From: Candidatus Gastranaerophilales bacterium | GTDB taxonomy: Bacteria; Cyanobacteriota; Vampirovibrionia; Gastranaerophilales; Gastranaerophilaceae | Direction of reading: 5' to 3' | Assembly: GCA_905234915.1 (NCBI GenBank) | Contig: CAJOJP010000001.1 | Span: 65,271-102,843, forward strand | DNA length: 37,573 bases | Shown: in pieces, positions 17,856 through 35,984 of the stretch | How positions within the stretch are numbered: the first letter of the stretch is position 1 | How the letters are laid out: each line of letters opens with the position of its first letter | Program-made: the position numbers and the translations under genes | The notes under the pieces: generated by a model | The model's input: only the letters and a program-made list of their open reading frames with translations | Databases searched by the model: none | Told to the model about the DNA's origin: nothing

Positions 17856-19166
17856 TTACTTTTGTATTATCTCCCAATAGCCGCCTTTATCAGCACCTAT
17901 TCTTTTCAATTTATTTTCTTTTTTTAAATTACTTATTTGCTTTTCAATTCCTTTGACTGAAATATTGGTTTTCTCGGATATTTCTTTCATTGTTATTTTA
18001 GGGTTATTGGAAATTAATTTTAAAATTTTCTCCCTACTTTTCTCCCTACTTTTCTCCTCTTGGTAGGGAGAAAGTTCGGAGAAACCTTTATTAAAAGGAA
18101 TGCTAAATCTTAAAAAGTGTTCCATAAAGATAAAATTCCCTTTGTTATATATAGTTAGAATTTTCCCCATGCCTGAACCTATATGTTCAACTAATTCTAA
18201 ATCTTTAAAAATCCTCATAAGCTCACGATTTCTTGGCATAGAAACACCTGAGAAAAATTCTTCTCTGCTCAATCCTTCAACTAAACCGCCGTATGAAGTT
18301 ATTTCAAGCCTGTCAGAATATATTTCAAACAATGGCGGTACTTCTCTTGTATAGTCGTTATGAACAATAAAGTTAATTACAGCTTCTTTTACGGCTTCTG
18401 TATTCCATAACGGGATTTCTTCTCTGCCTGTATATGTTACATTAGTACTTACAGCATTTTCAACATCGAGTTTTTCCAATACTGCTTTTGCTGCTTTTAT
18501 AAGCGAACAATAGCCGTATTCTTTGTATTCTCTTAATTTTAACTTATCTGTTCCCCAATATTTTGCAACTTTGATTGATGTGCCATTCTTATCAGCTAAA
18601 AGATATGCAATATAATTATACTTACCGTCAGAAGTTAATAAATCAAGGTTTTTAGCAAAATTATCGTTTAAAGTTAATCCCTTTTCCTGATAATATATTT
18701 TCAGCTGCTCAAAAGTTAAATCCTGATGATGCGAAACTATATTTTTGAGTGTATTTCTTGTCCTTTTTGAATATAATTCAGCAATTTGATTTTCACTCAT
18801 TTGCTGAACGGATGAACCTATACGGATAAAACATCCTTTAGGTGTCATTCCGTTAGATTGCATATAATACGGCTTTTCGTTTCCGCTTGAAATAATAATG
18901 TGCAGTATTGTTTTACCTTCTTTTTGTTCGGTTAAAACATCAAACAGACCTAAGACAGACGGCTGAATACTATCTCGTATCTTATTTATAATCTTTAGCT
19001 GCAATTCATCGGCATTTTCAATTCCACAAATACTGCCGCCATTATCAACTCCAACGTATATATGACCGCCCATAGAATAATTCAAAAAACCGATAACATC
19101 TTTCATAATTGTATCGGAATATTCTCTTTTATATTCTGCCGTATTGCTTTCAGTCTGATTAAACAT
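17856..19166 (-). CDS. Schlafen/AlbA_2-type ATP-binding regulator
   Basis: 436 residues in three parts. Residues 1-120 are an AlbA_2 (Schlafen core) domain: TAEYKREYSDTIMKDVIGFLNYSMGG and HIYVGVDNGGSICGI. Residues about 240-360 are a HATPase_c_4-like module, with NTEAVKEAVINFIVHNDY, then ITSYGGLVEG and HIGSGMGKI. The C-terminus is a winged helix (NPKITMKEISEKTNISVKGIEKQI). This architecture is widespread and usually annotated as an RNA-binding or transcriptional regulator. It is common in mobile regions, and some Schlafen-core proteins act in defence. A 12-base repeat at 18028-18051 encodes the EKSREKSREK linker before the winged helix, a feature I associate with the family. It probably heads the operon with the zinc-ribbon gene. 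Confidence 0.8.
   Translation of the reverse strand: MFNQTESNTAEYKREYSDTIMKDVIGFLNYSMGGHIYVGVDNGGSICGIENADELQLKIINKIRDSIQPSVLGLFDVLTEQKEGKTILHIIISSGNEKPYYMQSNGMTPKGCFIRIGSSVQQMSENQIAELYSKRTRNTLKNIVSHHQDLTFEQLKIYYQEKGLTLNDNFAKNLDLLTSDGKYNYIAYLLADKNGTSIKVAKYWGTDKLKLREYKEYGYCSLIKAAKAVLEKLDVENAVSTNVTYTGREEIPLWNTEAVKEAVINFIVHNDYTREVPPLFEIYSDRLEITSYGGLVEGLSREEFFSGVSMPRNRELMRIFKDLELVEHIGSGMGKILTIYNKGNFIFMEHFLRFSIPFNKGFSELSPYQEEKSREKSREKILKLISNNPKITMKEISEKTNISVKGIEKQISNLKKENKLKRIGADKGGYWEIIQK
18028..18073. repeat. 12-base in-frame tandem repeat with inverted partner
   Basis: TTCTCCCTACTT occurs twice in tandem (18028-18039, 18040-18051), with a partial third. TAGGGAGAAA at 18063-18072 can pair with the repeat as a 10-bp stem. 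It lies in the coding sequence of the Schlafen-type gene and encodes its EKSR repeat, so the repeat unit is a multiple of three. Confidence 0.6.
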
Positions 19167-20647: not shown

Positions 20648-20674
20648 ATAAGCAATAGAGAAGGGATGAAAAAT

Positions 20675-22669
20675 ATGAATAATTTTGAAAAAAGACTTTT
20701 TTTAGATTACATGTACAAGCTGATAAATGAAATTGATATCAGGTGTTATTCGTTTGGGGAAGTTTTAGATTTCTTTTTAGAAGAATTTAATGTATCTAAA
20801 AAAATATTTAAAACGGATGAAGACGGCGAATTAATTCTTGATACAGTTTTTCATAGACGTGATTTTTTAAGGACATTAAAAGAAACTATAAAAAAACTTC
20901 AGGATAAAATTCCCGCAAGAAATACAACTCTTGAAAAACAGCTTATTCTCTTAAAAAACATTTATAAGCTTGAAGATGATGAATACGGGGTTATAACCTG
21001 CTGTATAGTTCAAGAAATAAATAATGTATTTAAAACTTTGTTTGACTGCATTAACCATGATAAATTTGCTAAATTCACTCAAACAGTCTTGGGTATCAGA
21101 TACAATAGACGTTCAAGAATAACAGAAAGCTTGTATTTAAAGAACTTAACCGATACAAGAAGGGGGTCATCTATTGAAATAAACCCTGAAATATTGAAAA
21201 TATTTGATAACCCTGACTGCAAAAGTTCTAATCAAATAATTCGTATGCTTTTAGGGAATAGTGAAAAATCCACATTAAAACTAAACGACTATAAACATAT
21301 AGAAAACGAAAGAATAAAAGCAGTAAATATATTAAAAGCAGCCGCTGAACAAAAGAGAAAAGGTGTAAATATTCTTTTATATGGAACTGTAGGTGCTGGA
21401 AAAACCGAATTTGCAAAATTGATTGCTAATACCGCTAAAATTCCAATTTATGCAGTCAAAACAGAAAAGGAAAACTTTAAAGAAGCTGATAGAGAATATA
21501 GGCTTGTTGATTTATACTCAAAGCAGGATATTTTATCACGCTCTGGCAGTGCCTGCATACTTTTTGATGAAGCAGAAGATGTTATGAACAGGGGCTTTTC
21601 TATGTTCGGCAGTGCTTCAAAAGGCTATTTGAATAAATTGCTCGAAGAAACTTCAGTTCCTGTTATTTGGACAACAAACAATATATATGACGTTGATCCT
21701 GCATTCCTTCGCAGAATGACTTATGCAATAGAGTTTGAAAAGTTATCTGATGAAATAAGGCTGAATATTTGGAACAGAATTTTAAAGAAGAATAAATTTA
21801 AAGTTAAGCAGTCAAAAGTTCAGGAACTCAATAAGGCTTATGATATTTCACCCTCTATCATTTCAAATGCAGTTCAGACAGCTAAAATGACTGGCGGAAA
21901 TGAAAATGATTTTGAAGGTTATATTGAAAATATAACGAAAGTTGTTTATAAAAGTAAAAATGTAAAAAATACGAAAAAAGAGTTTGACATTAAAAAGTAC
22001 AATCCAAACCTTGTTAATGCAGATTTAGACGTTAATAACTTAACGGATAAAATAAAAACGTGCGGAAAGTTAAATTTTTCAATTTGTATGTATGGTGAAC
22101 CAGGAACAGGAAAAAGTGAATACAGCCGATATTTGGCAAATAAACTCGGTATCGAAGTTATACAAAAAAGAGCAAGTGATTTAATTTCAAAGTGGGTAGG
22201 CGAAACCGAACAAAATATAGCAAGAGCATTTAATGAAGCGAAAGAAAAGAAAGCAATGCTGATTTTTGATGAAGCAGACAGCTTTTTACAGAATAGGAAC
22301 GGGGCAAATCACAGCTGGGAAGTAAGTCAGGTAAACGAAATGCTTACATGGATGGAATCACACGAATATCCGTTTATCTGTACAACTAACCTTTTGGATA
22401 CACTTGATGAAGCGAGTTTAAGGCGTTTCACTTTTAAAATCAAATTTGATTTTATGAATAATCATCAGGTAAATGAAGCTATGAAGCACTTTTTCAATAT
22501 TGATAATGCGGATTTTAACATAAAAGGTTTAACAACGGGCGATTTCGCAACAGTAAAAAAGAAAGCGGACTTCCTTAATATAACCGACAAAACGGAACTT
22601 GAAAAAATGCTTCGTGATGAAGTTAAACTTAAACAGTCTAAAGAACTTAAAAATGCAATAGGGTTTTAA
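20675..22669 (+). CDS. Tandem AAA+ ATPase, role unknown
   Basis: 664 residues from the ATG at 20675, which has AAGGG nine bases upstream. The ATG at 20666 directly abuts AAGGG and is unlikely. An N-terminal helical region of about 200 residues precedes two AAA+ modules. The first has Walker A GTVGAGKT, Walker B ACILFDEAED and a 'TTNNIYDVDPAFLRRM' sensor/arginine region. The second has Walker A GEPGTGKS, Walker B AMLIFDEADS and 'CTTNLLDTLDEASLRRF'. Both modules look active and resemble the classic (spastin/p97-like) AAA clade, including 'SKWVGETEQNIARAF'. No protease or membrane part is fused, so it may be a remodelling ATPase. It ends at a strong terminator facing the mcrBC-helicase operon. 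Confidence 0.8.
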   Translation: MNNFEKRLFLDYMYKLINEIDIRCYSFGEVLDFFLEEFNVSKKIFKTDEDGELILDTVFHRRDFLRTLKETIKKLQDKIPARNTTLEKQLILLKNIYKLEDDEYGVITCCIVQEINNVFKTLFDCINHDKFAKFTQTVLGIRYNRRSRITESLYLKNLTDTRRGSSIEINPEILKIFDNPDCKSSNQIIRMLLGNSEKSTLKLNDYKHIENERIKAVNILKAAAEQKRKGVNILLYGTVGAGKTEFAKLIANTAKIPIYAVKTEKENFKEADREYRLVDLYSKQDILSRSGSACILFDEAEDVMNRGFSMFGSASKGYLNKLLEETSVPVIWTTNNIYDVDPAFLRRMTYAIEFEKLSDEIRLNIWNRILKKNKFKVKQSKVQELNKAYDISPSIISNAVQTAKMTGGNENDFEGYIENITKVVYKSKNVKNTKKEFDIKKYNPNLVNADLDVNNLTDKIKTCGKLNFSICMYGEPGTGKSEYSRYLANKLGIEVIQKRASDLISKWVGETEQNIARAFNEAKEKKAMLIFDEADSFLQNRNGANHSWEVSQVNEMLTWMESHEYPFICTTNLLDTLDEASLRRFTFKIKFDFMNNHQVNEAMKHFFNIDNADFNIKGLTTGDFATVKKKADFLNITDKTELEKMLRDEVKLKQSKELKNAIGF

Positions 22670-22692
22670 TAAATCAAATATTTTTTATATTT

Positions 22693-22714
22693 AATGGGCG
22701 GAGAACCGCCCATT
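22693..22714 (+). terminator. Strong terminator between convergent operons
   Basis: AATGGGCGG (22693-22701) pairs perfectly with CCGCCCATT (22706-22714), loop AGAA, followed by GTTTTTAT. It ends the tandem AAA transcript and overlaps the downstream end of the convergent helicase gene. Confidence 0.9.
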
Positions 22715-22718
22715 GTTT

Positions 22719-25700
22719 TTATATAACCATTGATTTACAAAAAGCTTTATAATCACAAAATGTGAAATTATCTTTATTGCACTTTTCTTTACATTCAAAA
22801 ACTTTTCGTGTTTCAATATTTGAATTTTTTTCTGCAAATTGTTTTATTTTAAATATACATTCGGCATATTTATTTAAAACATTTTTGCAATTTATTAATC
22901 CATTCTCACCTTCCAGGTCATTAATTCTAAATTCTTTAGGATTTCGTTTGTTTTGTTTGTTATTTTTAGAATTTTTTTCTTCTTCATTTTCTTTCTTAAA
23001 AAGCTGCGGCTGAACAATTTTGATTTCCTTTATTTTCCCTTTATATTCATCTTGCTGTTCTAATATATATCGGTATATTGCCAGCTGATTATAATATTCT
23101 TCGTTTTTTTGATCAGGTGCAAAAGAAGAAGAAGTTTTTTCTTTACCTGTTTTATAATCAATGATATTATAAGTTCCATCATCATTTTTATCTAAACGGT
23201 CAATTTTACCGCTAAAATCTATTGTGAATGACTTTCCGTTATATTCAACAGAAATTGACATTTCAATATTTTTTTCAGCCTCAAATGTATCTTTTTTAGG
23301 GTTTTTAATCTGACTTTGCAGATATTCATAATATGCATTAAGTTTATCTTTTTCTTCTTGAATATTAATCAATTTTGCTGCTTCTTCTAAATCTTTTTGA
23401 AGTTCTTCCTGTATTTTTTTATCAAATTTTTCATATAAAAATTCTATATCAGGATATTGACCTGTTTTGTTTACTTCTCTAACCATTTGCTCTAATGCAA
23501 AATGTATTGCATTTCCAATTTCCATAGAATAATTTTTTTCTTTATCGCCTTTTTTCTTATAAGGTTTTAAATTCAAAATATAACGACACAAATATTTTTT
23601 AGGACATTCTATATATGTATTTAGTGATGTAGCCGAATATTTTTCCTGTAAATTTTGTTTAATATATTCAACAAATTCAGCAGCATAATCATAATCATAT
23701 CTGAGTGTTTCATCTGGATTAATAGTAAAAACTAAATTTTCTTTTAAAGAATTAATTGTTTCGCAAACTTTGTTAAAATCTGATAAATGTTCTTTATCAA
23801 TATAATCTTTAAATGTACTAAGTTTTGCAGCAGCCTCTTTTAATTTTGTTTCATAGCTTGAATCTTCTTTTATATTATCTATCTTTTCATCAAATTCTTC
23901 ATTGATTTTAATTAAATCTTTTCCTGCTTTTTGCTCTAATTTTTCTATAAAATAACTTTCTTCACCTGCTTCAAAAGAAAGATAAAGCGAATGTTTTGCT
24001 CTTGTCATTCCGACATACAACAATTTCAGCGAGTTTAAAAATTTTATCTGCTTTTGTTTGTCTTCTATACTTCCCATATCATTAAATTCAGAAACAGGTG
24101 TAAATTCCTTTTTGGAGAACGGAACTATTTCTTTATAACTATTTGCTGATTCATATTTATTTTTTGTTAAATTAGGCATAAATACATATTCAAATTCCCT
24201 GCCTTTTGATGAATGCAAGGTAGATATTTGAACCGCATTTAATGGTTTATCTGTTTTATCTGTAAAAACTTCTGAATTAGAAGACAATAAAGCCTCAATA
24301 TATTCAACAAATCCGTAAAAATCGGCATCAGGTACAGTTGATGAATATTCCTCAGCTAAACCAATAAATTTATTAATAGCATCTATATTTTCGGTTCTGT
24401 TTATTTTTAGACTTATATAACTTTGTAAAATGCCTGTTACACAAGCCATTTGATGAATTAAATTTTTGACTGATTCACATTGTCTATAGTTATCTAAAAT
24501 TTTATAATCATTTAGCAGTTTTTGAAGTTTTTTCTTATCTTGTAAAATATACTTTTTATCTTTTTCATATTGTTCTTTTTTATTTTTTAGTTCTTCTTCT
24601 TTATTATTATTTTTGTTTTCCTCTTGTTTTAGTTCTTCTTCTAAAATAACTATATCTTTTCCTATCTGTTCTGTATTATCAGACAGTTTAATTGCATATT
24701 CTATTTGTTCTAAAAGATTTTTCTGGCTTTTTATTCTTTTGTCTTGAAGTATATTGTAGTCATTATTACTTATATGAAAAGGTTTTGCGAGAAGGAAATG
24801 ATACAATTTATCAGAATTATATCCTGATAAATCATTAAAAAACTGCATATATGAAATAAGAAGTTTAACGGAATTAGCGTTAAAAATGTTTTTACCTCTG
24901 ACAAGCTGAACTCTTATACCTTCTGATTTTAATAATGAGGCATATTCTTCTGCTTCGTCATTCGATTTAACTAAAACAGCAATTTCTGATAATTTTTTAT
25001 CTTTAGTTTTTTTATCAATAGGGCATTTTGTTTCATCATTTATAATATCTTTAATTTGTTTTACTATATGAATTTTCTCATATTCAGCATTAGGATATCT
25101 GTTTATAATAACAGGGGTATTTTTATTTTTTAAATTATCATTTTCAGCATTTAATTCTTTAGACGCATCTTTAGGCAGAATGTCCTTAAGATTCTTTTCT
25201 TCTTTTTTAGAAAATAATCTTAAAGGAAATTGAATTTTTTCATAATCATCATCGTCATCCGCAAGAGCATATTTATTTTTTAGTTCTTTAAACCATTTGG
25301 TATCCGTTCCTCTTTTTTCTGTTTTTAACGCACCGCCGTTTATTTTTTCAACATAAAAATCAACATATCTATCCTGCAATTCTGCAATGATTTTAGAAAC
25401 ATCTAAAATTGTTTGTGTTGAACGCCTGTTCTCTTTTAAACAAAAAACTTTAGGTTTATCAGCTTTAAATTCTTTTAAAAATCCTTCAATTGTATCAAGG
25501 CTTGCACCTTGAAATGTATAAATAATCTGGTCATCGTCGCCGACAACTAATATATTTTTACAATATTTTGCCAACTTAAATACAATATCATTTTGCGATT
25601 TATTCGTATCTTGATATTCATCAACCATAATAAAATCAAATTGTTTGGCTGTTTTTTCCAAAAATTCGGGACTTTCATCAAATTTTTTAAGCACCATATC

Positions 25701-26348
25701 AATCATATCATCAAAATCGATAAAATTAGAAGATAACTCTTTATATTTTTGATATATATTCCATAATTCTTTTATCGTTTCAATTTCTTCATCTTCTTTT
25801 ATTTTCCATTCAAGATTATCGGCAAGATTCTTGTCAAAATCTTCTTTTTCAATTCTATAATGTTTAAATGCCTCGATTGTTTCTACTATTTTATCAATCT
25901 TTGCATATAAGCTGCTATCGTTTCTATTGTATTTTATAGGCATTTGTTCAAGACATTCTTTAACAATAGCTTGTTTTTGAAAATTGGTAATAAGTTTTTT
26001 ATTACCTATATCAAAAAGTTCAGGATTGTTTTTCATTAAATCAAAACAGAAACTATGGAAGGTATAAATGTTAATACTAGAGGAATTAGGAATCTTATTT
26101 TCTTCTAATTTTTTTCTCATTTCTTTTGCAGCAGCATCAGAAAAGGTTAAACATAAAATTCGTTCGGCTGATGTACCTTTTTCATTGTCGCTTAAAATAG
26201 CTTCTATTCTTTTTGAAATAGTAAAAGTCTTACCAGTTCCAGGTCCTGCTATAACAAGATATTTCCCGTCATGTTCATAAGATTTTATTGCATTTTGTTT
26301 ATCTTCTTCAAAATTTTTTATTTCTTCTGCTAATTCCTCAGATATCAT
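22719..26348 (-). CDS. UvrD-like superfamily 1 helicase fused to RecB/AddB-type nuclease domain
   Basis: 1209 residues. SF1A motifs: Walker A AGPGTGKT (34-41), motif II MVDEYQDTNKSQ, motif III GDDDQIIYTFQGA, motif V ISTLHSSKGREFEYVF and motif VI LLYVGMTRAKHSLYL. A Lys/Glu coiled coil is inserted near residues 580-640. The C-terminal 300 residues hold a PD-(D/E)XK nuclease: YIECPKKYLCRYIL, then GKIDRLD and YNIIDYKTGK (catalytic D and K). Cysteines near the end (CKEKCN, FCDYKAFC) with the upstream CPKKYLC suit an AddB/Cas4-type 4Fe-4S cluster. It starts 2 bases after mcrC stops, with AGAAGGAA as ribosome site, so it belongs to the mcrBC operon rather than to a recBCD/addAB locus; no AddB partner is present. 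Confidence 0.9.
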   Translation of the reverse strand: MISEELAEEIKNFEEDKQNAIKSYEHDGKYLVIAGPGTGKTFTISKRIEAILSDNEKGTSAERILCLTFSDAAAKEMRKKLEENKIPNSSSINIYTFHSFCFDLMKNNPELFDIGNKKLITNFQKQAIVKECLEQMPIKYNRNDSSLYAKIDKIVETIEAFKHYRIEKEDFDKNLADNLEWKIKEDEEIETIKELWNIYQKYKELSSNFIDFDDMIDMVLKKFDESPEFLEKTAKQFDFIMVDEYQDTNKSQNDIVFKLAKYCKNILVVGDDDQIIYTFQGASLDTIEGFLKEFKADKPKVFCLKENRRSTQTILDVSKIIAELQDRYVDFYVEKINGGALKTEKRGTDTKWFKELKNKYALADDDDDYEKIQFPLRLFSKKEEKNLKDILPKDASKELNAENDNLKNKNTPVIINRYPNAEYEKIHIVKQIKDIINDETKCPIDKKTKDKKLSEIAVLVKSNDEAEEYASLLKSEGIRVQLVRGKNIFNANSVKLLISYMQFFNDLSGYNSDKLYHFLLAKPFHISNNDYNILQDKRIKSQKNLLEQIEYAIKLSDNTEQIGKDIVILEEELKQEENKNNNKEEELKNKKEQYEKDKKYILQDKKKLQKLLNDYKILDNYRQCESVKNLIHQMACVTGILQSYISLKINRTENIDAINKFIGLAEEYSSTVPDADFYGFVEYIEALLSSNSEVFTDKTDKPLNAVQISTLHSSKGREFEYVFMPNLTKNKYESANSYKEIVPFSKKEFTPVSEFNDMGSIEDKQKQIKFLNSLKLLYVGMTRAKHSLYLSFEAGEESYFIEKLEQKAGKDLIKINEEFDEKIDNIKEDSSYETKLKEAAAKLSTFKDYIDKEHLSDFNKVCETINSLKENLVFTINPDETLRYDYDYAAEFVEYIKQNLQEKYSATSLNTYIECPKKYLCRYILNLKPYKKKGDKEKNYSMEIGNAIHFALEQMVREVNKTGQYPDIEFLYEKFDKKIQEELQKDLEEAAKLINIQEEKDKLNAYYEYLQSQIKNPKKDTFEAEKNIEMSISVEYNGKSFTIDFSGKIDRLDKNDDGTYNIIDYKTGKEKTSSSFAPDQKNEEYYNQLAIYRYILEQQDEYKGKIKEIKIVQPQLFKKENEEEKNSKNNKQNKRNPKEFRINDLEGENGLINCKNVLNKYAECIFKIKQFAEKNSNIETRKVFECKEKCNKDNFTFCDYKAFCKSMVI

Positions 26349-26350
26349 TT

Positions 26351-27925
26351 TTATTCCTTCTCTTTAAAAAACTTTTTAATTTCGTCTGCATTTTCTTTAT
26401 CTATTTTATCAGATAAATTATCAAAAATATGTTTTATTGTATTTAATACTTGTTTTCTATCCTCGTCATTTTTTGATTTAGTTATGTCATCAATAATTTT
26501 ATTTTTTTCTGTACTATCATTTTTCAGTTCTTTCAATATTGGTCTTATTGTGTGCAAACATTCAACAATATCTATTATATTTTCAAACTGATTTTTGACG
26601 GAACTAACAATATCTTTTAAATTCTCATTACTTACATCAACATAAATTCTGTTTATATAAATCTCTTTATTTGTTTTAACCATATCTAATTGATATTCTT
26701 TTTCATGCCTGATAAAAAATCCTTCCTTATCATTATTTATTTTTTTTGGATATATAAGTATAGAATTATCGGTATCATGCAAAAGGCAATATGTACACAC
26801 CTGATATATATCTGAATTATCTAATGTACTTAATTTGTACTTTGTATCAAGAATTATTTTTTTGTTTTCCTTTTCTAAATATATATCAACATAAGTATTA
26901 CCTTTGCTTCTGTTTGTATCAGGATTTTTAAGCAGTTTTTGGTTTTTTTGTGCTGTAGGCGTATATTTGGTACAGCCTTTTCTTAAGACCTCATAAACAA
27001 ACTCTTCAAAAAGTTTATTCATATCCCATAAAAGAGTTATATTTTCAATTTTGTTTTGTGAAATATCAACAGAAATATTATTCAAAAACATTTTTGCAAA
27101 TTTAAACGGATGTTCAAAAAGTTTTTGATTTCGTGTCAAAATAATCTTTTCAGCTTTATATCTATCTGTTTTAACCAATGGCAGGCCGCAAAAATAATTC
27201 ATTATAAAAGATAAAATCTGTTTGTTCTTGCTATCTTTTGACACATTAAACAAACATTTTGAAACAAATAAAAATAAACGGTTAAGCTCATTGTTCTCTG
27301 AAAATTCATCATATTCGCAATAAAATTTTGCTTTGTTAGCACAGTTATAACGAATATTTTCGGTAAACTTCAACTTGCCTTTTAAATAGTTTAAATTATC
27401 TTCTTCTCTAACATAATTACGAGGTGTTAAACGCTTTAAACATTCAAATAATGATTGAGCGTAATCTCTTATAAGAACTTCTAAAAATGGATTTTTACAA
27501 CAGTTTATATTAGCATGTTCACTATATTTAACATCTAATTTTTTCGTTAAAGAAAGCATGTAAATTAAGTTTTTTGTGATTTGTTCAACAACTTTGTTAT
27601 CTGAAAGACTTTTACATTCACTTTCAGATAATTTTGATGTTTCTTCATTATCTTCTTCTGCTTCTGATTGCTGCGTGTTTGCTTTTTCCTCAAATTTGCC
27701 GAGCAGCTTGGGAAATATATCAAGCTGAAAATTTTTATATTTTATAACTCCGACATAACTGCTTGTTTTTATATAACCGTCATGAAAAGCAATAGCACCC
27801 GAAAGATTTTGCTTTATTAAATAGTTTTTAAACCGTTCTCTAAAGTTATCATCTTTAAGGCAGTATTGCTCTTCATTTTCTTTTGAAGTTTTATATTTTA
27901 TTTCTTTATATTCAAGAGTTCTCAC
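26351..27925 (-). CDS. mcrC: McrC, nuclease subunit of McrBC-type restriction system
   Basis: 524 residues, GTG start with AAAGGAAA upstream. The N-terminus (AIAFHDGYIKTSSYVGVIKYKNFQLDIFPKLL) is the McrC entry domain that contacts the McrB ring. The C-terminal nuclease has D347 in YVDIYLE and D360-T-K362 in IILDTKYK, the PD-(D/E)XK pattern. The 13- and 2-residue spacings equal those of the E. coli McrC catalytic residues D244, D257 and K259 as I recall them. McrC stimulates McrB GTPase and cuts DNA at modified sites. An acidic insertion (about residues 82-108) and a C-terminal helical extension after about residue 440 lengthen it beyond the roughly 350-residue E. coli protein. It lies 20 bases after mcrB and 2 bases before the helicase gene. 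Confidence 0.92.
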   Translation of the reverse strand: MRTLEYKEIKYKTSKENEEQYCLKDDNFRERFKNYLIKQNLSGAIAFHDGYIKTSSYVGVIKYKNFQLDIFPKLLGKFEEKANTQQSEAEEDNEETSKLSESECKSLSDNKVVEQITKNLIYMLSLTKKLDVKYSEHANINCCKNPFLEVLIRDYAQSLFECLKRLTPRNYVREEDNLNYLKGKLKFTENIRYNCANKAKFYCEYDEFSENNELNRLFLFVSKCLFNVSKDSKNKQILSFIMNYFCGLPLVKTDRYKAEKIILTRNQKLFEHPFKFAKMFLNNISVDISQNKIENITLLWDMNKLFEEFVYEVLRKGCTKYTPTAQKNQKLLKNPDTNRSKGNTYVDIYLEKENKKIILDTKYKLSTLDNSDIYQVCTYCLLHDTDNSILIYPKKINNDKEGFFIRHEKEYQLDMVKTNKEIYINRIYVDVSNENLKDIVSSVKNQFENIIDIVECLHTIRPILKELKNDSTEKNKIIDDITKSKNDEDRKQVLNTIKHIFDNLSDKIDKENADEIKKFFKEKE

Positions 27926-27945
27926 TTGGTATTTTCCTTTGCTTT

Positions 27946-30288
27946 TTATTTATTATTATCAGTCGGTGTTTTATCTTCGACTTTTGTGGATTTTGGAATA
28001 ATACCGCTTTTAATAGTATCAAGAGCATTTTCAATATTTAATTCATTATCATTTTTAAATTTGTAGATTGTTTCGCAGTCATTTATATTAAAAAGAGGTT
28101 CTTGTTGTATTTTTTCGATAAATGATTTTTTTATTTTATCTTTTTTAGCTTCATCATTATCCTGTTGATTATGTTCAATAAGTATAGCCATTATTTTTTC
28201 CCAATCACCATAGAAGTATTCGTTTAATAACGGTAAAATTTCATATTTGAATACATCTTTTAAATCATCTTCAAGAATATAATCACGCTTATTGCCATTT
28301 TCATCTTCAAAAAGTTTCATAAAATAACTGTGTCCGATTTGGTGGTCGGGGTCAGCCAAAATAGATATGCGTTCATTGAGAGTTTGAAGTAATAATTGCA
28401 AATTAATTTGATATACTGGTTTTTTATCCTCTTTTGATAATTTAACATCCCATAAACTTACAGGCTCTATTTCTCCTTCTTTTATTTCATGTTTTTTTTC
28501 ATTTTCTTTTCTCAACAATTCTGGTTTCGGCATCATTTCTATAAATCTGAAACGTCTTCTAAGTGCAATATCGACTGAAGCAATACTTCTATCTGCTGTA
28601 TTCATTGTACCTATTATGTATAGGTTTGATGGTACACCGAACGGCTGTTGAGAATAAGGCAATTTGACTTTTAATTCATGTTCAGCACCAATTCTCTTAT
28701 CAGGTTCAATCAACGTAATAAGCTCGCCAAAGATTTTTGAAATGTTACCTCGGTTTATTTCGTCTATGATGAGAACATAAGGCTGATTTGGTTCTTTTTT
28801 GTCTGTAATTTTATAATCACAATGTTGTTCCATATATTCTATAATAGGTTTTGCATAATATTTCCAATCAGATTGATTATGCAATTTATCTTTTATCAAA
28901 GAACCCTGCTGCGTAAAATTAGCTCCTGTATATAAATTCAAATTTCCGTTAGTGTTTAATGATATACCAAATTTTTTACTGTTTTTAGTTTGTAATTCTA
29001 AAAATTCTTTTGAATTATTTTCACAATTTTCTTGTATTTTTTCAATTAATTTACTATATGCTTCATCAAAATTATCAGTCTGTGTTGCTTTTGCATTTTC
29101 ACAAATTTGTTTGAAAATTCCTTTTGATTCTACATATTTTAAATCAGTTGATTGTAAATCAGGTTTAATTCCTTCAACAAATTCTTCATAAGAATAAGAT
29201 TGATGAAAAGTTACAAATTCAATTCGATGTTCTTTAGCTTTTAAACGGTCAAATTCTTTTTTTAAATCTTCGTATGTACATTTTTCAGTTTTATTTTCTT
29301 CATTATTTTGTTCTTCTTCCGTTAATTTTAACCATTCATTATATTGATTATATTTGTTATATAATTCTTTATTTAAAATTCTTATAGCCTCAATAACTGT
29401 ATTATAAGTTTTACCTGTTCCAGGCGGGCCGTATAATATTTGGTTTTTTGCAGGTTGTGTATTTACTTCGGTCATGTCATTATCCTTTTTATTTACTGCT
29501 TCATCCTCTTTATTTTTTTCTTGTTGATTTGTATCTCTTGCAATTAAATCTAATATTCTATAGTTCTTAATTCCAAGTTCATTTTTTATTTTATCAAAAT
29601 TTTTACATATAAATATGTAATCTTTCAGTTCATTACAGCTTGTTTTTATTAAATCTTTACCAAACCATTTCTGGTATTCCTTTTTATTTGCCCCATTAAT
29701 TACAGGAAAAATATCGGGTCTTAAACAATGTAATATTTGTGACAAACCTTCACAACTTTTTAGAAATCTTTCCGCAGTTAGATTGTTCTTTATATAAGAA
29801 TCTACAATATTATATATTTTATCTGTATCATTTTCTTTGTAAATTTCAATACACATTAAAATAAATTGTTTTGAGGCTTCTGGTGTTAATCTTGAATTTG
29901 GTGTGGGATTTAAACTTTCACTCGCTCGTGCGAACAACCCAATTTCTTTATTATCATATAACTTTTCTATATATGATTTTACAATACCTTTATTGCTTAA
30001 GTGTATTGGCTCATATTCTCCAACTTTTTGACCTTTTTCTATAGTTTGTCCTTTTTTCTTTTTACTATCAACATATGACTTATCTATGCAAGATTTTTTC
30101 GTTTCTTTATTTTCTATCATTGGTATATGAAATAAAAAATTTAAATCTGCAATTCCCCAAGATGCAGAATTATCTTTTTCCTTTTCATATTCAGCTATAA
30201 CTTTTTGCATAAGTTCATAGCAAGGACAATTTAAGGATTCGTCATTTGATTTTTCACTTGCTTTTTGTTTTAATTCATTTATATCCAT
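27946..30288 (-). CDS. mcrB: McrB, GTP-driven AAA+ subunit of McrBC-type restriction system
   Basis: 780 residues from the ATG at 30288, which has GAGGAAAGT directly upstream. An ATG at 30351 would add 21 low-complexity residues without a ribosome site. Residues 1-270 are a variable target-recognition part; I recognise no known reader domain in it. The AAA+ GTPase has Walker A GPPGTGKT (287-294), 'FHQSYSYEEFVEGIKP', Walker B LIIDEINRGN (509 onward) and MNTADRS (562-568), the last being the McrB hallmark replacing the NKxD motif. LRRRFRF holds the arginine region. An internal ATG at 29475 (M272), preceded by AAAAAGGATA at 7-base spacing, could give a short form lacking the reader, like E. coli McrBs. 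First gene of the mcrB-mcrC-helicase operon. Confidence 0.93.
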   Translation of the reverse strand: MDINELKQKASEKSNDESLNCPCYELMQKVIAEYEKEKDNSASWGIADLNFLFHIPMIENKETKKSCIDKSYVDSKKKKGQTIEKGQKVGEYEPIHLSNKGIVKSYIEKLYDNKEIGLFARASESLNPTPNSRLTPEASKQFILMCIEIYKENDTDKIYNIVDSYIKNNLTAERFLKSCEGLSQILHCLRPDIFPVINGANKKEYQKWFGKDLIKTSCNELKDYIFICKNFDKIKNELGIKNYRILDLIARDTNQQEKNKEDEAVNKKDNDMTEVNTQPAKNQILYGPPGTGKTYNTVIEAIRILNKELYNKYNQYNEWLKLTEEEQNNEENKTEKCTYEDLKKEFDRLKAKEHRIEFVTFHQSYSYEEFVEGIKPDLQSTDLKYVESKGIFKQICENAKATQTDNFDEAYSKLIEKIQENCENNSKEFLELQTKNSKKFGISLNTNGNLNLYTGANFTQQGSLIKDKLHNQSDWKYYAKPIIEYMEQHCDYKITDKKEPNQPYVLIIDEINRGNISKIFGELITLIEPDKRIGAEHELKVKLPYSQQPFGVPSNLYIIGTMNTADRSIASVDIALRRRFRFIEMMPKPELLRKENEKKHEIKEGEIEPVSLWDVKLSKEDKKPVYQINLQLLLQTLNERISILADPDHQIGHSYFMKLFEDENGNKRDYILEDDLKDVFKYEILPLLNEYFYGDWEKIMAILIEHNQQDNDEAKKDKIKKSFIEKIQQEPLFNINDCETIYKFKNDNELNIENALDTIKSGIIPKSTKVEDKTPTDNNK
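29475..29490 (-). promoter_or_regulatory. Internal ribosome-binding site and start within mcrB
   Basis: Read on the minus strand: AAAAAGGATA (29490-29481), then seven spacer bases from the AAGGA core to an in-frame ATG (29475-29473). It opens at MTEVNTQP just before the GTPase domain, as the internal McrBs start does in E. coli. This is a better ribosome site than the one at the full-length gene's upstream ATG. Confidence 0.4.
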
Positions 30289-30424
30289 ACTTTCCTCATT
30301 TCCGTTACTTCCTTCCCCATTTTTTTCCCCCCGACTAGATTTGTCAATCATTACGGCAGTATCAGGGCTTTTATTATTCTAATATATCAGTTTTCTTCCA
30401 TATCTTCTTTTTGTAAAATTATCG

Positions 30425-30973
30425 TTACATGTCATCAAAGTTCACATATTTGCTTATAAATTCAAAATCTTTTTTGAAGGGTTTAAAGTCTTTTATTTCA
30501 TGCCCGTATTCTGTTATTTCAAACAAATGTGCCAGATGTTTCCAATAGTTAATCGACTTACTGCTATCTAAAACTTCATCGTTTTTCCCTATAATTACAA
30601 GTCTTAGAGTCGTTCTATTTCTTACCTCAGAATAACTGTTTATCAGTTCATCCGTTATAAGCTCAGGGGCATCTTTTTGAAATTTCTTTAAAACTTCTTT
30701 GGGATTTGATACAGGGTTAAATAATGCACAATGAATAGAAAGTTCTGATGCTATAGCATTTGCATAGAATCCACCCATACTTGAACCCATTAATACACAA
30801 TCACCTTTTGCTTTTTCATCTTTCATGAATTTGAAAAGCTTATCATAATTTTCTTGAAACGGCTTTTGACAATCCCATTTCAAAATGGTAATTTCTTCAC
30901 TAATCACTTCTTTTAACCGTTTTACTGTTGTTTCGCCTGTTGCACCCCATCCATGAATGTAAAAATATTTCAT
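30425..30973 (-). CDS. YqiA/RBBP9-like alpha/beta hydrolase
   Basis: 182 residues. HGWG (7-10) forms the oxyanion-hole region, GSSMGGFYAN gives nucleophile S65 at the elbow, 'VIGKNDEVLDS' supplies the Asp and EYGHEIKDF the His of the triad. The size and lid-less layout match the YqiA/RBBP9 group of small esterases of uncertain substrate. It is transcribed leftward between the WYL gene and mcrB. A terminator precedes it and a TATAAT box overlaps the terminator's tail, so it may have its own promoter. It ends 73 bases upstream of mcrB, so partial co-transcription with the restriction operon is possible. A defence role is not established. Confidence 0.8.
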   Translation of the reverse strand: MKYFYIHGWGATGETTVKRLKEVISEEITILKWDCQKPFQENYDKLFKFMKDEKAKGDCVLMGSSMGGFYANAIASELSIHCALFNPVSNPKEVLKKFQKDAPELITDELINSYSEVRNRTTLRLVIIGKNDEVLDSSKSINYWKHLAHLFEITEYGHEIKDFKPFKKDFEFISKYVNFDDM

Positions 30974-31048: not shown

Positions 31049-32005
31049 TTATTTTTTCTTTTGATGTTTCATTGTGTTTTCGAGAAGTTCTATATATTGT
31101 TTTTTCAAACTTGTCGGAGCTAAGACTTTAACATCACATCCCCACCTGAATAAGTGCCACATTATTTCATATTCCCCCGATGCTTTAAATTTTACGGTTA
31201 CTGTTCCATCTTCATTTTGTTTCATCTTTTGTGTTGAATGGAAATAATAATTTAAAACATCATCTTTTGCCGAGGCTGCAAACAAAAGTTTTACGTCTAT
31301 TTTTTTTGAAAATTTATCAAGGTTAAAATCACCCTTATCAAAGGTTTCGTTTATAAGTTTAATTTCAGAAAATTTATGCAAAAGGTAGCAATAAGGCTCT
31401 GTTCCCTTATCTTCTTCAACCCCTATTAAATACACCTTAGAGCCGTATATTAAACCGTATGGTGCAAGCACTTTATCTTTGCCGTTATATTTTGCCTTTA
31501 TTTTTTTATTTTCTTTCATCGCATTGCGTACTGTTTCAAGCAAATCCGTATCTATTTTGTGTTTAGGCATTTGTTTAACGGCAAAACCTTCCGTCTGCAT
31601 TAAAATTTCAAGTGCATTATCAAGTTTAGGCAGTTTTTTCCTAGATAATGCTCTTATTTTATTGATTGTTTGGTCTAAAAGTTTTTCTTTATCTTCAAAA
31701 CCTTGTTCTTTTTGGTATTCTTTTAATTTTTCAAGATTGGCGAGTTCTTCAGGTGTAAAACTTATAATCTCTCTCATATAACTATTAGGAAATCCCCAGT
31801 ATTTTTCCCTCGTTTTAAAGTTTTCGATTTTCTGTATTTGAGGAACGGCAAGCATTAAACTATCCCTCATTCTTTCTGCTGTTCGGCGGGAAACACTAAA
31901 TTCTTTCATAATATCATTCAATGTAACACCCTGAACCCTTGATTGCATAAGTATCATTAAAGATAATATATCTGCTGCCCTTGAATATCTCGGTTTATCT
32001 TCCAT
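31049..32005 (-). CDS. WYL-domain transcriptional regulator
   Basis: 318 residues from the ATG at 32005, chosen because GAGG lies 8 bases before it; an ATG at 32011 is only 2 bases from GAGG. A DeoR/HTH_11-type helix-turn-helix (RAADILSLMILMQSRVQGVT, then EFSVSRRTAERMRD) is followed by a linker. The WYL domain (about 150-225) has 'APYGLIYGSKVYLIGVEE', with VYLIG in place of WYLIG. A C-terminal extension ends in a WCX-like part. WYL proteins bind nucleic-acid ligands and control defence islands in many bacteria. This gene sits in the middle of one, divergent from the AbiE pair, with a half-site pair TACGTC-N7-GACATA in its own promoter. Confidence 0.9.
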   Translation of the reverse strand: MEDKPRYSRAADILSLMILMQSRVQGVTLNDIMKEFSVSRRTAERMRDSLMLAVPQIQKIENFKTREKYWGFPNSYMREIISFTPEELANLEKLKEYQKEQGFEDKEKLLDQTINKIRALSRKKLPKLDNALEILMQTEGFAVKQMPKHKIDTDLLETVRNAMKENKKIKAKYNGKDKVLAPYGLIYGSKVYLIGVEEDKGTEPYCYLLHKFSEIKLINETFDKGDFNLDKFSKKIDVKLLFAASAKDDVLNYYFHSTQKMKQNEDGTVTVKFKASGEYEIMWHLFRWGCDVKVLAPTSLKKQYIELLENTMKHQKKK

Positions 32006-32017
32006 TTGCATAACCTC

Positions 32018-32131: not shown

Positions 32132-32893
32132 ATGAATACCGAAAACAAATCAAATTTAAAATATCTTTTATCGAATTTTCCAAGAAATACTATTTTAACA
32201 TCAAAATATTTAACACAAAAAGGGTTTTCGCATGACTTGCAAAAAAGTTATGAGCATAACGGCTGGCTGAAAAGAATTTTTCAAGGAGCATATACAATAT
32301 TAGAGGATAAAGCTGATTTAAACGGTGCAATATATGCCTTGCAGGAACAATTAAATTTAAGCGTTCATATTGGAGGTATAACTGCATTAAATGAGTATCA
32401 TAACATAATGCACAATATACCGTTTGAAAGAAAACAGCAGTTATTTGGGATTAGAGGCGAGAAACTTCCTAAATGGTTTAATACCTTGTATGGTAAGGAT
32501 ATAGAGTTAAATATTTCTTCTTTTCTGCCTAAAAATATAAGTATGACGGAGCAAAATCATGGTAATTTTAAAACTAAAGTATCATCTTTAGAGCGTGCCA
32601 TATTGGAAATGCTTTATCAAACACCTGATAAAATAACCTTAAATGAAGCCTATCAAATATTTGAACTTCTAATAACGGTTAAACCTAAAGAATTTCAGAT
32701 ATTATTAGAACAATGTACATCAATAAAAGTTAATAGATTATTTCTGTATTTATCTGAAACGGTTAATCATAACTGGTTTAAAAGGCTTGATTTAAGTAAA
32801 ATAGATTTAGGTAAAGGTGCAAGAGAAATAACAAAAGGCGGCAAGCATAATAAAAAGTACAATATTATAATCGGAGATGTTACGGAAATATAA
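32132..32893 (+). CDS. abiEi: AbiEi-type antitoxin/transcriptional regulator
   Basis: 253 residues. An N-terminal winged helix (NTILTSKYLTQKGFSHDLQK, then YEHNGWLKRIFQGAYTI) is followed by the AbiEi body with 'HIGGITALNEYHNIMHNIPF', the usual 'yig..sAL...gl......' stretch. The C-terminal part (SSLERAILEMLYQTPDK) matches the antitoxin domain. In type IV toxin-antitoxin systems AbiEi represses its own promoter and counters the nucleotidyltransferase toxin without binding it. The stop overlaps the toxin's ATG (TAATG), the normal arrangement. No Shine-Dalgarno is present at good distance; the promoter suggests leaderless translation. Confidence 0.88.
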   Translation: MNTENKSNLKYLLSNFPRNTILTSKYLTQKGFSHDLQKSYEHNGWLKRIFQGAYTILEDKADLNGAIYALQEQLNLSVHIGGITALNEYHNIMHNIPFERKQQLFGIRGEKLPKWFNTLYGKDIELNISSFLPKNISMTEQNHGNFKTKVSSLERAILEMLYQTPDKITLNEAYQIFELLITVKPKEFQILLEQCTSIKVNRLFLYLSETVNHNWFKRLDLSKIDLGKGAREITKGGKHNKKYNIIIGDVTEI

Positions 32894-33795
32894 TGGATGA
32901 AAAGTATTTAAATCAGGTAAACCTGCTTGTCAAAGTATTAAATTACACAGCAAAAGAAGAATGTTTTGCACTAAAAGGCGGAACTGCAATTAATCTTTTC
33001 TATAATAATCTTCCCCGTCTTTCTGTTGATATAGATTTGACTTATGTAGGATTTGAAGAACGAGAGAAAGCAGTTGATAATATTAATTCTGCACTGGGAA
33101 GAATTGCAAAAACTCTTAAATCAAACGGATATACTGCTGTATTACAGGGAAATAAATCCGAAAAGAAAATTATATGTTCAAATAAAGAGGCTTCGATTAA
33201 AATAGAGCCTAATTACATAATAAGAGGTTATGTCAATAAGCCTAAAATTATGAGTGTTTGTGAAGCTGTTGAAAATCAATTTTCTTATGCTGAAATACAG
33301 ATTGTTTCTAAATCTGAACTTTACGGCGGGAAGATTTGTGCCGCACTTGATAGACAGCATCCGAGAGATTTATTTGATATAAAAGAATATTTTGAAAATA
33401 ACAGCTTTGATGATGAATTAATAAAAGGCTTTATTGTAATGCTTTTAAGCCATGATAAACCTTTACATGAAACCATAAACCCTAATATTAAAAATCAAAA
33501 AGAAATTTTTGAAAAACAGTTTAAAGGAATGACGGATAAAAAATTTTCTTATGAAAATCATATTGAAACTCTGCAAAATCTTATTAAAATGGTAAAAGAA
33601 TATATACAGCCATATAAGCAGTTATTATTAGATTTCGTTTCACTTAAAGCTGATTTATCTGATTTTCAGATAGAAAATATCGAAAAACTTCCAGCTATAA
33701 AATGGAAATTTAGAAACCTTTATTATTTAAAAGAAAATAACCTCGATAAATTTAAAGAACAATATGATAAGTTAAAAGATTGTTTAGGGGATTAA
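32893..33795 (+). CDS. abiEii: AbiEii-type nucleotidyltransferase toxin
   Basis: 300 residues of the DNA polymerase beta-like nucleotidyltransferase fold. Motif I is LKGGTAINLFY (G29, G30), with the catalytic acids in SVDIDLTY (D46 and D48). Motif II is IKIEPNYIIRG. 'RQHPRDLFDIKEYF' is the third conserved block. Relatives of this toxin add nucleotides to tRNA 3' ends or otherwise stop translation, giving abortive infection. All key residues are present, so the toxin should be active. It is coupled to AbiEi by a 1-base overlap and followed after 4 bases by a small exported protein. Confidence 0.92.
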   Translation: MDEKYLNQVNLLVKVLNYTAKEECFALKGGTAINLFYNNLPRLSVDIDLTYVGFEEREKAVDNINSALGRIAKTLKSNGYTAVLQGNKSEKKIICSNKEASIKIEPNYIIRGYVNKPKIMSVCEAVENQFSYAEIQIVSKSELYGGKICAALDRQHPRDLFDIKEYFENNSFDDELIKGFIVMLLSHDKPLHETINPNIKNQKEIFEKQFKGMTDKKFSYENHIETLQNLIKMVKEYIQPYKQLLLDFVSLKADLSDFQIENIEKLPAIKWKFRNLYYLKENNLDKFKEQYDKLKDCLGD

Positions 33796-34275: not shown

Positions 34276-35025
34276 ATGAATAAAATTAATGCGGAAGAAT
34301 TTTTAAAAAATACGGAAGAAAATGTATTTTCAACGGGATTTAGTGAAATTGATGAATTGCTGCCTAATGTTGATAAGGGAAGTATTATAACTATCGGAGC
34401 AAGACCAGCTATGGGGAAAACCTCTTTCGCTTTATCGATTGTTAGTCATTTGCTTGCCGATAACAAAAAAGTATTTTATTTCTCCCCATCAGCAACTGTA
34501 AAAAGAATTACCAAGCGACTGATTTCAAATAAATTAAAAATACACAGTTATGAGTTTGAAAAAGAATTACAGACAAATGAGAACTCCATCAAAGAAGCTC
34601 TTAAGTATTATTCCGATAAAAATTTATATATCAATGACAAAACAAATATAACGGTTGAAGATATAGAAACAGAGGTTAAGGAAAATATACCTGATTTTGT
34701 TTTTATTGATTACATTCAGCTTTTAAAAATGCCTAAAGCTCCTAATTTTACCGATAGCATTAATATTGCGGTGCAGGAAATAAAACGTATTGCAAATGAA
34801 ACTGGTGTTATTTTTGTTATAATTTCTCAGCTTTCAAGAGCTGTTGAAGAACGTCTTGATAAAAGACCGTTGTTATCGGATATTAGAAATTCAAGTTTAC
34901 TTGAAGAACTTTCCGATATCGTTTTAATGATTTATCGAGACGGATACTATAATTTAGAGGACGAAACTTTGCTGAAATTATCTTTCGTAAAAATGAGTTC
35001 GGACCGTTGTTTAGTGTATGTTTAA
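34276..35025 (+). CDS. Stand-alone DnaB-like RecA-fold domain, catalytic Glu motif missing
   Basis: 249 residues corresponding to the C-terminal motor domain of DnaB helicase. It has STGFSEIDELL, Walker A GARPAMGKTS (41-50), Walker B FVFIDYIQLL (141-150), then SQLSRAVEERLDKRPLLSDI and SDIVLMIYRD. The N-terminal DnaB domain and linker are absent. Where DnaB has the 'FFSLEM' motif with its catalytic Glu, this protein has YFSPSAT, so ATP hydrolysis may be impaired. The end is also shorter: the usual 'RNGPTG' hairpin is replaced by VKMSSDRCLVYV. It starts after AGGAGG and lies 62 bases upstream of the reverse transcriptase gene. It is too divergent to be the replicative helicase; a sensor or regulatory role beside the RT is possible but unproven. 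Confidence 0.82.
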   Translation: MNKINAEEFLKNTEENVFSTGFSEIDELLPNVDKGSIITIGARPAMGKTSFALSIVSHLLADNKKVFYFSPSATVKRITKRLISNKLKIHSYEFEKELQTNENSIKEALKYYSDKNLYINDKTNITVEDIETEVKENIPDFVFIDYIQLLKMPKAPNFTDSINIAVQEIKRIANETGVIFVIISQLSRAVEERLDKRPLLSDIRNSSLLEELSDIVLMIYRDGYYNLEDETLLKLSFVKMSSDRCLVYV

Positions 35026-35064
35026 GATTTAGCAGCGGAATATTTTGTCCTAATTTAAAATCTT
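35024..35064 (+). other. Inverted repeat just upstream of the reverse transcriptase gene
   Basis: AAGATTT (35024-35030, overlapping the upstream stop codon) pairs with AAATCTT (35058-35064), and the left arm is followed by AGC. Retron ncRNAs begin in this way (a1 repeat then the branching G in AGC), but 41 bases is far too short for an msr-msd, so this is only a resemblance. Confidence 0.25.
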
Positions 35065-35087
35065 GCGAATTTTAGGAGAAATCTTTA

Positions 35088-35984
35088 ATGCAGAAAATTT
35101 ATTTAGGGTTTAACTTGTTTTATGATGTATATAAACGAGGTAAAAGAACGATTTATGCTCCGTCAAAAGAGTTAAAGGACTTGCAGCGGCAGATTTTAAA
35201 CTTTATAAAAACAAAGTATAAGATTAAATTCAATATTAAAGATACGGCAAAGGTGCATTGCAATCAAAAATATATTTTAAAATTAGATATAAGAAAATTT
35301 TATGAATCGGTTTCTAAAGAACAGATAAAAGGTGTTATTTCAGATATCCATAAAAATATTGAATTCCCTGAACAATATACGAAAAAGTTGCTTTATCAAT
35401 TAATGACGGTTGAAGATAAACTGCCAACAGGTGCTGCTACCTCTTGCCACATAGCAAACCTTGCCTTTACAAAAACAAAAATTGATGAAAAACTAAAAGA
35501 ATTTTGTGAACAAAATGAACTTAAATACTCTCGTTATATGGATGATATGTTTTTTTCGGGTGCGAATAAAATAAATCTGAAAAAGGCAGAAAAATACGCA
35601 ATTGGCTTGTTAAAAGAAGCTGGATTTAATATCAACCACGAGAAAACTCAATATATATCGGATAACAAACGGCAGGAAATTTTAGGGCTTGTTGTAAATA
35701 ATGAAGAAAATGCCGTCATTGCTTATGATAAGAAATATCAATATCGTTCAATGTTCTTTAATTATTTAAAAGCAGTGTATTTAGAAGAACGGCTCGGAAT
35801 AAATGCTCTTTTTAAAAAGAAAATCGGATACAGAGAAGTAACAGGACACCTATCTTACATAAAAAGTTCAGATATGAAATTTTACGAAACAATGAAAAAG
35901 TATATAAAATCTAAAATAAATAAATTCGGTATCTATAATAATGATGAAATTAAAAGGTTAAGAAAGGTTATTAATAAAGGATAA
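35088..35984 (+). CDS. Retron-type reverse transcriptase
   Basis: 298 residues containing RT fingers and palm. The first catalytic Asp is D67 in ILKLDIRKFYESV. The RT4 block is LPTGAATSCHIANLAF (112-127). The active site is SRYMDDMFFSG with Y150-M151-D152-D153. Next come the 'GFNINHEKTQYI' primer-grip-like region and 'RQEILGLVVNN', where retron RTs usually have VTG. A short thumb ends with GYREVTGHLSYIKSSD. Size and motifs fit retron/Abi-type RTs rather than group II intron RTs (no maturase or endonuclease) or DGR RTs (no SQ in motif 4). AGGAG lies 9 bases before the ATG. No msr-msd-like RNA is obvious in the 62 bases upstream or the 36 downstream. It sits between the DnaB-like and RhuM-Doc genes. 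Confidence 0.87.
   Translation: MQKIYLGFNLFYDVYKRGKRTIYAPSKELKDLQRQILNFIKTKYKIKFNIKDTAKVHCNQKYILKLDIRKFYESVSKEQIKGVISDIHKNIEFPEQYTKKLLYQLMTVEDKLPTGAATSCHIANLAFTKTKIDEKLKEFCEQNELKYSRYMDDMFFSGANKINLKKAEKYAIGLLKEAGFNINHEKTQYISDNKRQEILGLVVNNEENAVIAYDKKYQYRSMFFNYLKAVYLEERLGINALFKKKIGYREVTGHLSYIKSSDMKFYETMKKYIKSKINKFGIYNNDEIKRLRKVINKG

Follow-up and report, generated by a model that had tools for sequence, protein, structure and literature searches.

A McrBC operon with a RecB-like helicase–nuclease as an optional third gene in a Gastranaerophilales bacterium

Operon layout and genomic surroundings

We analysed a 37,573-nucleotide stretch of contig CAJOJP010000001.1 from a Candidatus Gastranaerophilales bacterium (the window), which carries mcrB, mcrC and a gene for a helicase–nuclease (HEL) in co-directional order on its minus strand (Table 1). 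An earlier, sequence-only reading had proposed a three-gene operon here, and ORF calling bears this out: the gaps are 20 bp between mcrB and mcrC and 2 bp between mcrC and hel, and the three genes are probably co-transcribed on one mRNA. Pfam assigns UvrD-helicase (4.5e-58), PDDEXK_1 (7.7e-27) and UvrD_C to HEL, McrBC (PF10117, 1e-57) to McrC and AAA_5 (2e-13) to McrB. The longest McrB frame covers 27946–30351; we agree with that reading in placing the start at 30288, because AGGAAAG lies directly 5′ of this codon, whereas the ATG at 30351 has no Shine–Dalgarno sequence. The proposal that the operon ends at a terminator needs correction. The T-run of the hairpin 3′ of the HEL stop is on the plus strand, with none on the operon strand, so the hairpin resembles a terminator of the convergent AAA+ gene. 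At the other end, a terminator-like site (31045–31013, minus strand) sets the upstream WYL gene apart from the operon.

Table 1 Features of the McrBC–HEL locus, with one helicase–nuclease from related loci for comparison (positions in the window unless a locus is named)
Feature	Position	Strand	Basis or context
Double-AAA+ ATPase, distantly IetA/RFC-like, convergent	20666–22669	+	island neighbour, not an operon component
Hairpin, 10 pairs, T-run on plus strand	22692–22715	+	between HEL stop and convergent AAA+ gene
HEL, SF1A (UvrD/PcrA-like) helicase with RecB-family PD-(D/E)XK nuclease, 1209 aa	22719–26348	-	ORF calling, Pfam
HEL nuclease domain, residues 904–1204	22737–23639	-	Pfam, alignment of relatives
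HEL motor, residues 15–792 (Walker A GPGTGKT, motif II DEYQD, motif VI YVGMTRAKH)	23973–26306	-	
McrC, nuclease/activator subunit, 524 aa, GTG start	26351–27925	-	ORF calling, Pfam, conserved residues
McrB AAA+ GTPase, 780 aa from the preferred start at 30288	27946–30288	-	ORF calling, Pfam, Shine–Dalgarno
McrB N-terminal reader region, unnamed	29452–30288	-	sequence comparison, model
UPF0227-like alpha/beta hydrolase, upstream, 73 bp gap	30425–30973	-	also flanks the second operon copy
WYL/WCX-domain regulator	31049–32011	-	
IGHMBP2/UPF1-like helicase–nuclease, 860 aa	L076:10989–13571		downstream of canonical NxxD mcrBC

WYL homologues lie just 5′ of mcrB in several related loci. We found the double-AAA+ ATPase in 11 of 98 relatives, where its neighbours vary and are either convergent or co-directional with it; it may mark an exchange site. 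We considered whether this ATPase is the true partner of HEL, with McrBC a passenger. It does adjoin HEL in eight loci and is co-directional with it in L053, L090, L092 and L112; yet it is convergent, and hence outside the operon, in the window, the second operon copy, L061 and L080, HEL is absent from seven of the AAA+ loci (two of them on short contigs), and L079, L082 and L130 have McrBC with HEL and no AAA+ gene seen. We regard such a partnership as highly improbable, and reject it in its obligate form on account of the seven loci without HEL.

Several other genes surround the operon. Adjoining the WYL regulator is an AbiEi/AbiEii toxin–antitoxin pair (32132–33795), beyond which a DnaB/RecA-like ATPase (249 aa) precedes a retron-type reverse transcriptase (298 aa, YMDD), the two spanning 34276–35984. 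A RhuM–Fic fusion at 36021–37016 scores 410 bits against the candidate defence family PDC-S23. The pair of ATPase and reverse transcriptase recurs in L061, L081, L090, L092, L106, L112 and L153, often beside McrBC, HEL or the AAA+ gene. On the far side of the operon are an SMC/AAA_15-type ATPase (11696–13348), which resembles the mads_3, LmuB and AriA models, and a regulator-like protein with Schlafen AlbA_2, HATPase_c_4 and a winged helix (17856–19166).

The same genome assembly (2.5 Mb, 146 contigs) holds a second operon copy. Contig C120 carries the UPF0227 hydrolase, McrB (600 aa), McrC (466 aa) and the 5′ part of HEL, while the remainder of HEL and the convergent AAA+ ATPase lie on contig C133; when C133 is reversed, its opening 99 bp are identical to the final 99 bp of C120, so the two contigs join into one operon. 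The operon proteins have diverged far from those of the window (McrC 27% and HEL 32% identical), whereas the flanking proteins are closer (AAA+ 94% and hydrolase 53% at the amino acid level). We read this copy as another version of the operon at a chromosomal site of the same kind; the assembly fits another strain merged into it and a duplicated island alike.

McrB, McrC and HEL compared with known systems

The McrB motifs, Walker A GPPGTGKT, LIIDEINRG and MNTADRS, are invariant or almost so in 24 McrBs; within the last, NTAD is the canonical NxxD form of the GTPase motif, and the protein matches solved McrB (6ut3/6ut5) at about 1e-68. In McrC, the PD-(D/E)XK residues D347, D360 and K362 are invariant among 14 McrCs, and the protein aligns with solved archaeal McrC (6ut5_G, 1e-16). 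By these features the window encodes an ordinary canonical (NxxD-type) Type IV McrBC, for which modification-dependent cleavage is predicted. It shares with the McrBC of E. coli K-12 and Thermococcus gammatolerans (PDB 6ut5) an NxxD McrB AAA+ GTPase encoded upstream of mcrC, and a McrC with an activator region and a PD-(D/E)XK nuclease. It differs from them in the third gene and in the reader, which is not ADAM/DUF3578, EVE or any other Pfam family.

The earlier reading had not recognized this N-terminal reader region, and our searches agree. Residues 22–300 (the N-terminal region of about 280 residues) gave no Pfam match up to an E value of 1, and the only two related sequences found were the N-termini of the McrBs in L116 (labelled Riflebacteria) and L171/L172. 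Plasmids yielded no relative of the McrB N-terminus; viral contigs scanned with it and with the McrC alignment yielded no confirmed relative, and McrC had one distant match in phage records. Structure prediction of the region, proposed as a check, gave a low-confidence model built from three sequences (pLDDT 61). The top four VIA-align rows for this model are Ogg2 enzymes, with Z scores of 6.0–7.6 over 143–177 residues, a range (below 8) in which a match can reflect a merely common arrangement; other HhH-GPD enzymes rank below these Ogg2-type 8-oxoguanine glycosylases. Neither Pfam nor a PDB profile search, which returned unrelated matches only, provided sequence support for an HhH-GPD reader, and the Ogg-HhH Pfam model did not match the relatives' sequences. 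The model weakly suggests an HhH-GPD glycosylase-like fold, which we keep as a lead, and the reader remains unnamed. Among other McrBs, that of L083 carries an EVE domain, and that of the mcrB–mcrC–hel operon in L080 (7183–8565) has its Walker A at residue 12 and is apparently without an N-terminal reader (start as annotated; a split gene is possible).

HEL combines an SF1A motor with a RecB-family nuclease. The motor motifs Walker A, DEYQD and the TRAKH type are common to 22 aligned relatives, in which the nuclease residues H949, D1050, D1064-x-K1066, Q1088 and Y1092 are invariant; together with the PDDEXK_1 match, these RecB-family residues (H, D, D-x-K, Q-x3-Y) bear out the RecB-type nuclease of the sequence-only reading. 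Its suggestion of a 4Fe–4S cluster also fits, in that C915, C1198 and C1204 are invariant and a fourth cysteine lies N-terminal to C1198 at a distance that varies among relatives; the four cysteines probably form such a cluster. An AF2 model of HEL (mean pLDDT 74.9, pTM 0.53) gave full-length alignments with AdnA (Z 23.8, 799 residues) and AddB (Z 20.8, 875 residues); the alignment with RecB covers most of the model, whereas PcrA, UvrD and Rep align with the motor alone. As modelled, HEL is a protein of RecB-family architecture.

Given this architecture, we compared HEL with AdnAB, AddAB and RecBCD. It shares with them the UvrD-type motor and the RecB-family nuclease with four cysteines, but it is a single polypeptide encoded with mcrBC and scores far under every NCBIfam equivalog cut-off, including those of AddA, RecB, PcrA and UvrD. 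No gene for a partner subunit was seen beside HEL at the loci examined, which speaks against the addAB-like locus that the earlier reading had named as a sign of accidental association. On these two grounds we reject HEL as AddA, AddB, RecB, AdnA or AdnB proper. The genome encodes further HEL homologues, including a lone copy on contig C66, and elsewhere a 1266-aa UvrD-type protein (L019).

Two defence systems invite comparison. CoCoNuTs are McrBC relatives defined by an NxD GTPase motif, a deletion in NxxD, and carry in Types II and III the UPF1-like SF1 helicase CnuH, to which a Vsr-like nuclease is fused in Type III-B (PMC11090510). The window resembles them in having a McrBC-like pair, an SF1 helicase and a nuclease in one operon, but its McrB is NxxD, its McrC retains the nuclease, its helicase is of the UvrD/RecB type, and CnuE, CnuA and TerY-P are absent; the main text of the CoCoNuT paper never uses the word UvrD (PMC11090510). 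We reject membership on the NTAD motif and the lack of a UPF1-like CnuH. Gabija GajB and ARMADA ArmD, the latter described as GajB-like (PMC12458937), are likewise UvrD-family helicases of defence operons. Both GajB and DRT-helicase models score on HEL, and for its motor GajB ranks with the best models in PADLOC; the GajB models (about 600 aa) cover mainly that part of HEL. Gabija itself is rejected, since the neighbours of HEL are McrC, McrB and the double-AAA+ gene, with no GajA/OLD-nuclease gene beside it.

Distribution of the McrBC–HEL linkage

The search across genomes for this gene order, proposed as a check, drew on 51 McrC loci from species genomes of bacteria and archaea and on McrC hits in 98 relatives. 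Counting loci that had been fetched twice (for example, L079/L113 and L080/L123) once, and including the window, we obtained 56 non-redundant McrC loci. HEL stands flush, co-directional and 3′ of mcrC in five of them (the window, C120/C133, L079, L080 and L112), and in two others (L082 and L130) it lies flush 5′ of mcrB in the order hel–mcrB–mcrC, making only 7 of 56 with a flush HEL. In L083 it lies one gene upstream, and in L090 and L092 it shares an island with McrBC. The mcrB–mcrC–hel order therefore recurs, but in about 46 of the 56 loci, a few of them on short contigs, the stretch retrieved contains no HEL. Seen from the other side, of about 36 HEL loci whose surroundings could be examined, about 27 lack a nearby McrBC. 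The sequence-only reading had held that the association would be accidental if HEL homologues usually stood away from mcrBC, and most of them do. Taken together, these counts indicate that HEL is a recurrent and optional partner of McrBC, not a fixed subunit.

HEL proteins form two clades. One, of about 1020 aa, is widespread, occurs in most genomes of the genus and includes the HELs of L082 and L083; the other is accessory and comprises those of the window, the second copy, L079, L080, L112, L090 and L092, as well as several copies not associated with McrBC. In L083 (2692–10999) and L082 (3101–12181), HEL and McrBC are joined by a PDDEXK_4 nuclease gene, at differing positions. In L061 (6300–12178), a WYL regulator is followed by a 567-aa unnamed protein (no Pfam match) and then by HEL, so that the 567-aa gene occupies the place held by mcrBC in the window.

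We then assessed the gene order by shuffling the eight loci that have both partners on one contig, holding McrBC fixed and permuting the other genes and their strands. Flush co-directional placement was observed five times against 0.75 expected (P = 0.00025), and four times against 0.70 expected when the window was left out (P = 0.0025); the test covers position within islands, not joint presence, and the loci are partly non-independent. The flush McrBC–HEL loci lie on separate branches of the McrC tree, and linkage to HEL requires seven changes on that tree and at least four on the HEL tree, so the two were brought together, or stayed together despite many losses, on several occasions in related gut bacteria. 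Of the combined system that had been proposed, the non-accidental link is supported by these results (five loci in the same order, on several McrC branches and beyond the shuffled expectation), whereas a fixed system is not, as most McrBC operons of this kind lack HEL and most HEL homologues stand apart from mcrBC. In plasmids, McrC relatives were about 30% identical or less and HEL matches were confined to the motor domain; McrC and HEL were not found flush together among the matches listed.

The position after mcrC is also taken by another enzyme. In L076, L102, L105 and L078, an 860-aa helicase–nuclease lies 66–67 bp 3′ of mcrC; it consists of AAA_11/AAA_12 (an IGHMBP2/UPF1-like SF1 helicase) and a C-terminal DUF2726/MTES_1575 PD-(D/E)XK nuclease and is unrelated to HEL. 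The four copies are 94–98% identical and so count as one lineage. They show that a helicase–nuclease of a different family can occupy the slot of HEL.

A further pair of loci, L090 and L092, is about 90–98% identical in nucleotide sequence over most of 17 kb, with McrC (98.6%) and the AAA+ protein (98%) kept, whereas HEL (41% at the amino acid level) and McrB are replaced, the latter at its N-terminus and over much of the GTPase. As this is a single pair, it no more than hints at a coupling between McrB and HEL.

Possible roles of HEL beside McrBC

These loci are defence islands rich in helicases and nucleases, so the adjacency of McrBC and HEL can reflect shared regulation or transfer. It is quite possible that HEL works independently in defence or repair and has only its transcript and island in common with McrBC, each acting on different phages. 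Such independence would fit the many HELs away from mcrBC, the many mcrBC operons without HEL, the near-constant presence of a related HEL clade in the genus, the mixture of WYL regulators, AbiE, reverse transcriptases and helicases in the islands, and the scores of HEL with the GajB and DRT-helicase models. It accounts less readily for a tight order that recurs on several McrC branches in excess of shuffled order, or for an unrelated helicase–nuclease fusion in the same slot.

We favour, with a probability of about one half, the reading that a McrBC restriction operon captured a RecB-like HEL as an optional third gene, with McrBC cutting modified DNA and HEL degrading it from the ends. On invading DNA, the McrB N-terminus would bind a modified base. 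With stimulation by McrC, the McrB ring would then translocate on GTP, and the McrC nuclease would introduce a double-strand break. HEL would load on the fresh ends, unwind them with its UvrD-type motor and degrade them with its Fe–S RecB-type nuclease, so that the cut DNA could not be religated, repaired or packaged. The sequences themselves show the gene order, catalytic motifs that are intact in all three proteins, and repeated assembly of the operon on several McrC branches; from these we infer the order of action, as well as physical contact and functional coupling between McrBC and HEL. The logic of cutting followed by degradation has a precedent in E. coli, in which chromosomes broken by McrBC are degraded further by RecBCD (PMC2614495). 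HEL is modular in this arrangement: the majority of McrBC operons lack it, and many copies of HEL occur by themselves.

A stricter version, in which the McrB reader and HEL are matched parts that are exchanged together and McrBC passes its cut ends directly to HEL in a tripartite restrict-and-degrade system, seems to us rather unlikely; the paired replacement of those two blocks between L090 and L092 would be what suggests their joint exchange.

The precedent can also be turned around: HEL might protect the host by resecting or repairing McrBC breaks in its own DNA, permitting a more aggressive McrBC. RecA and RecBCD lower the lethality of McrBC in E. coli (PMC2614495), and the proteins most like HEL are the recombination-repair nucleases AddAB, AdnAB and RecB. 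Set against this analogy, most McrBC operons of the same lineage lack HEL and no recombination-mediator gene is attached, and we consider a protective role improbable.

A search with incomplete coverage of the literature, and hence weak evidence, turned up no published account of a McrBC operon with a UvrD/RecB enzyme. McrBC is usually seen as a self-sufficient cutter, with clean-up left to the host RecBCD. If the reading of a captured, optional HEL is true, clean-up would be a selectable part of Type IV restriction, given the repeated assembly of the pairing and the second, unrelated helicase–nuclease in the same slot, and this could explain how restriction stays effective when a phage inhibits the host RecBCD.
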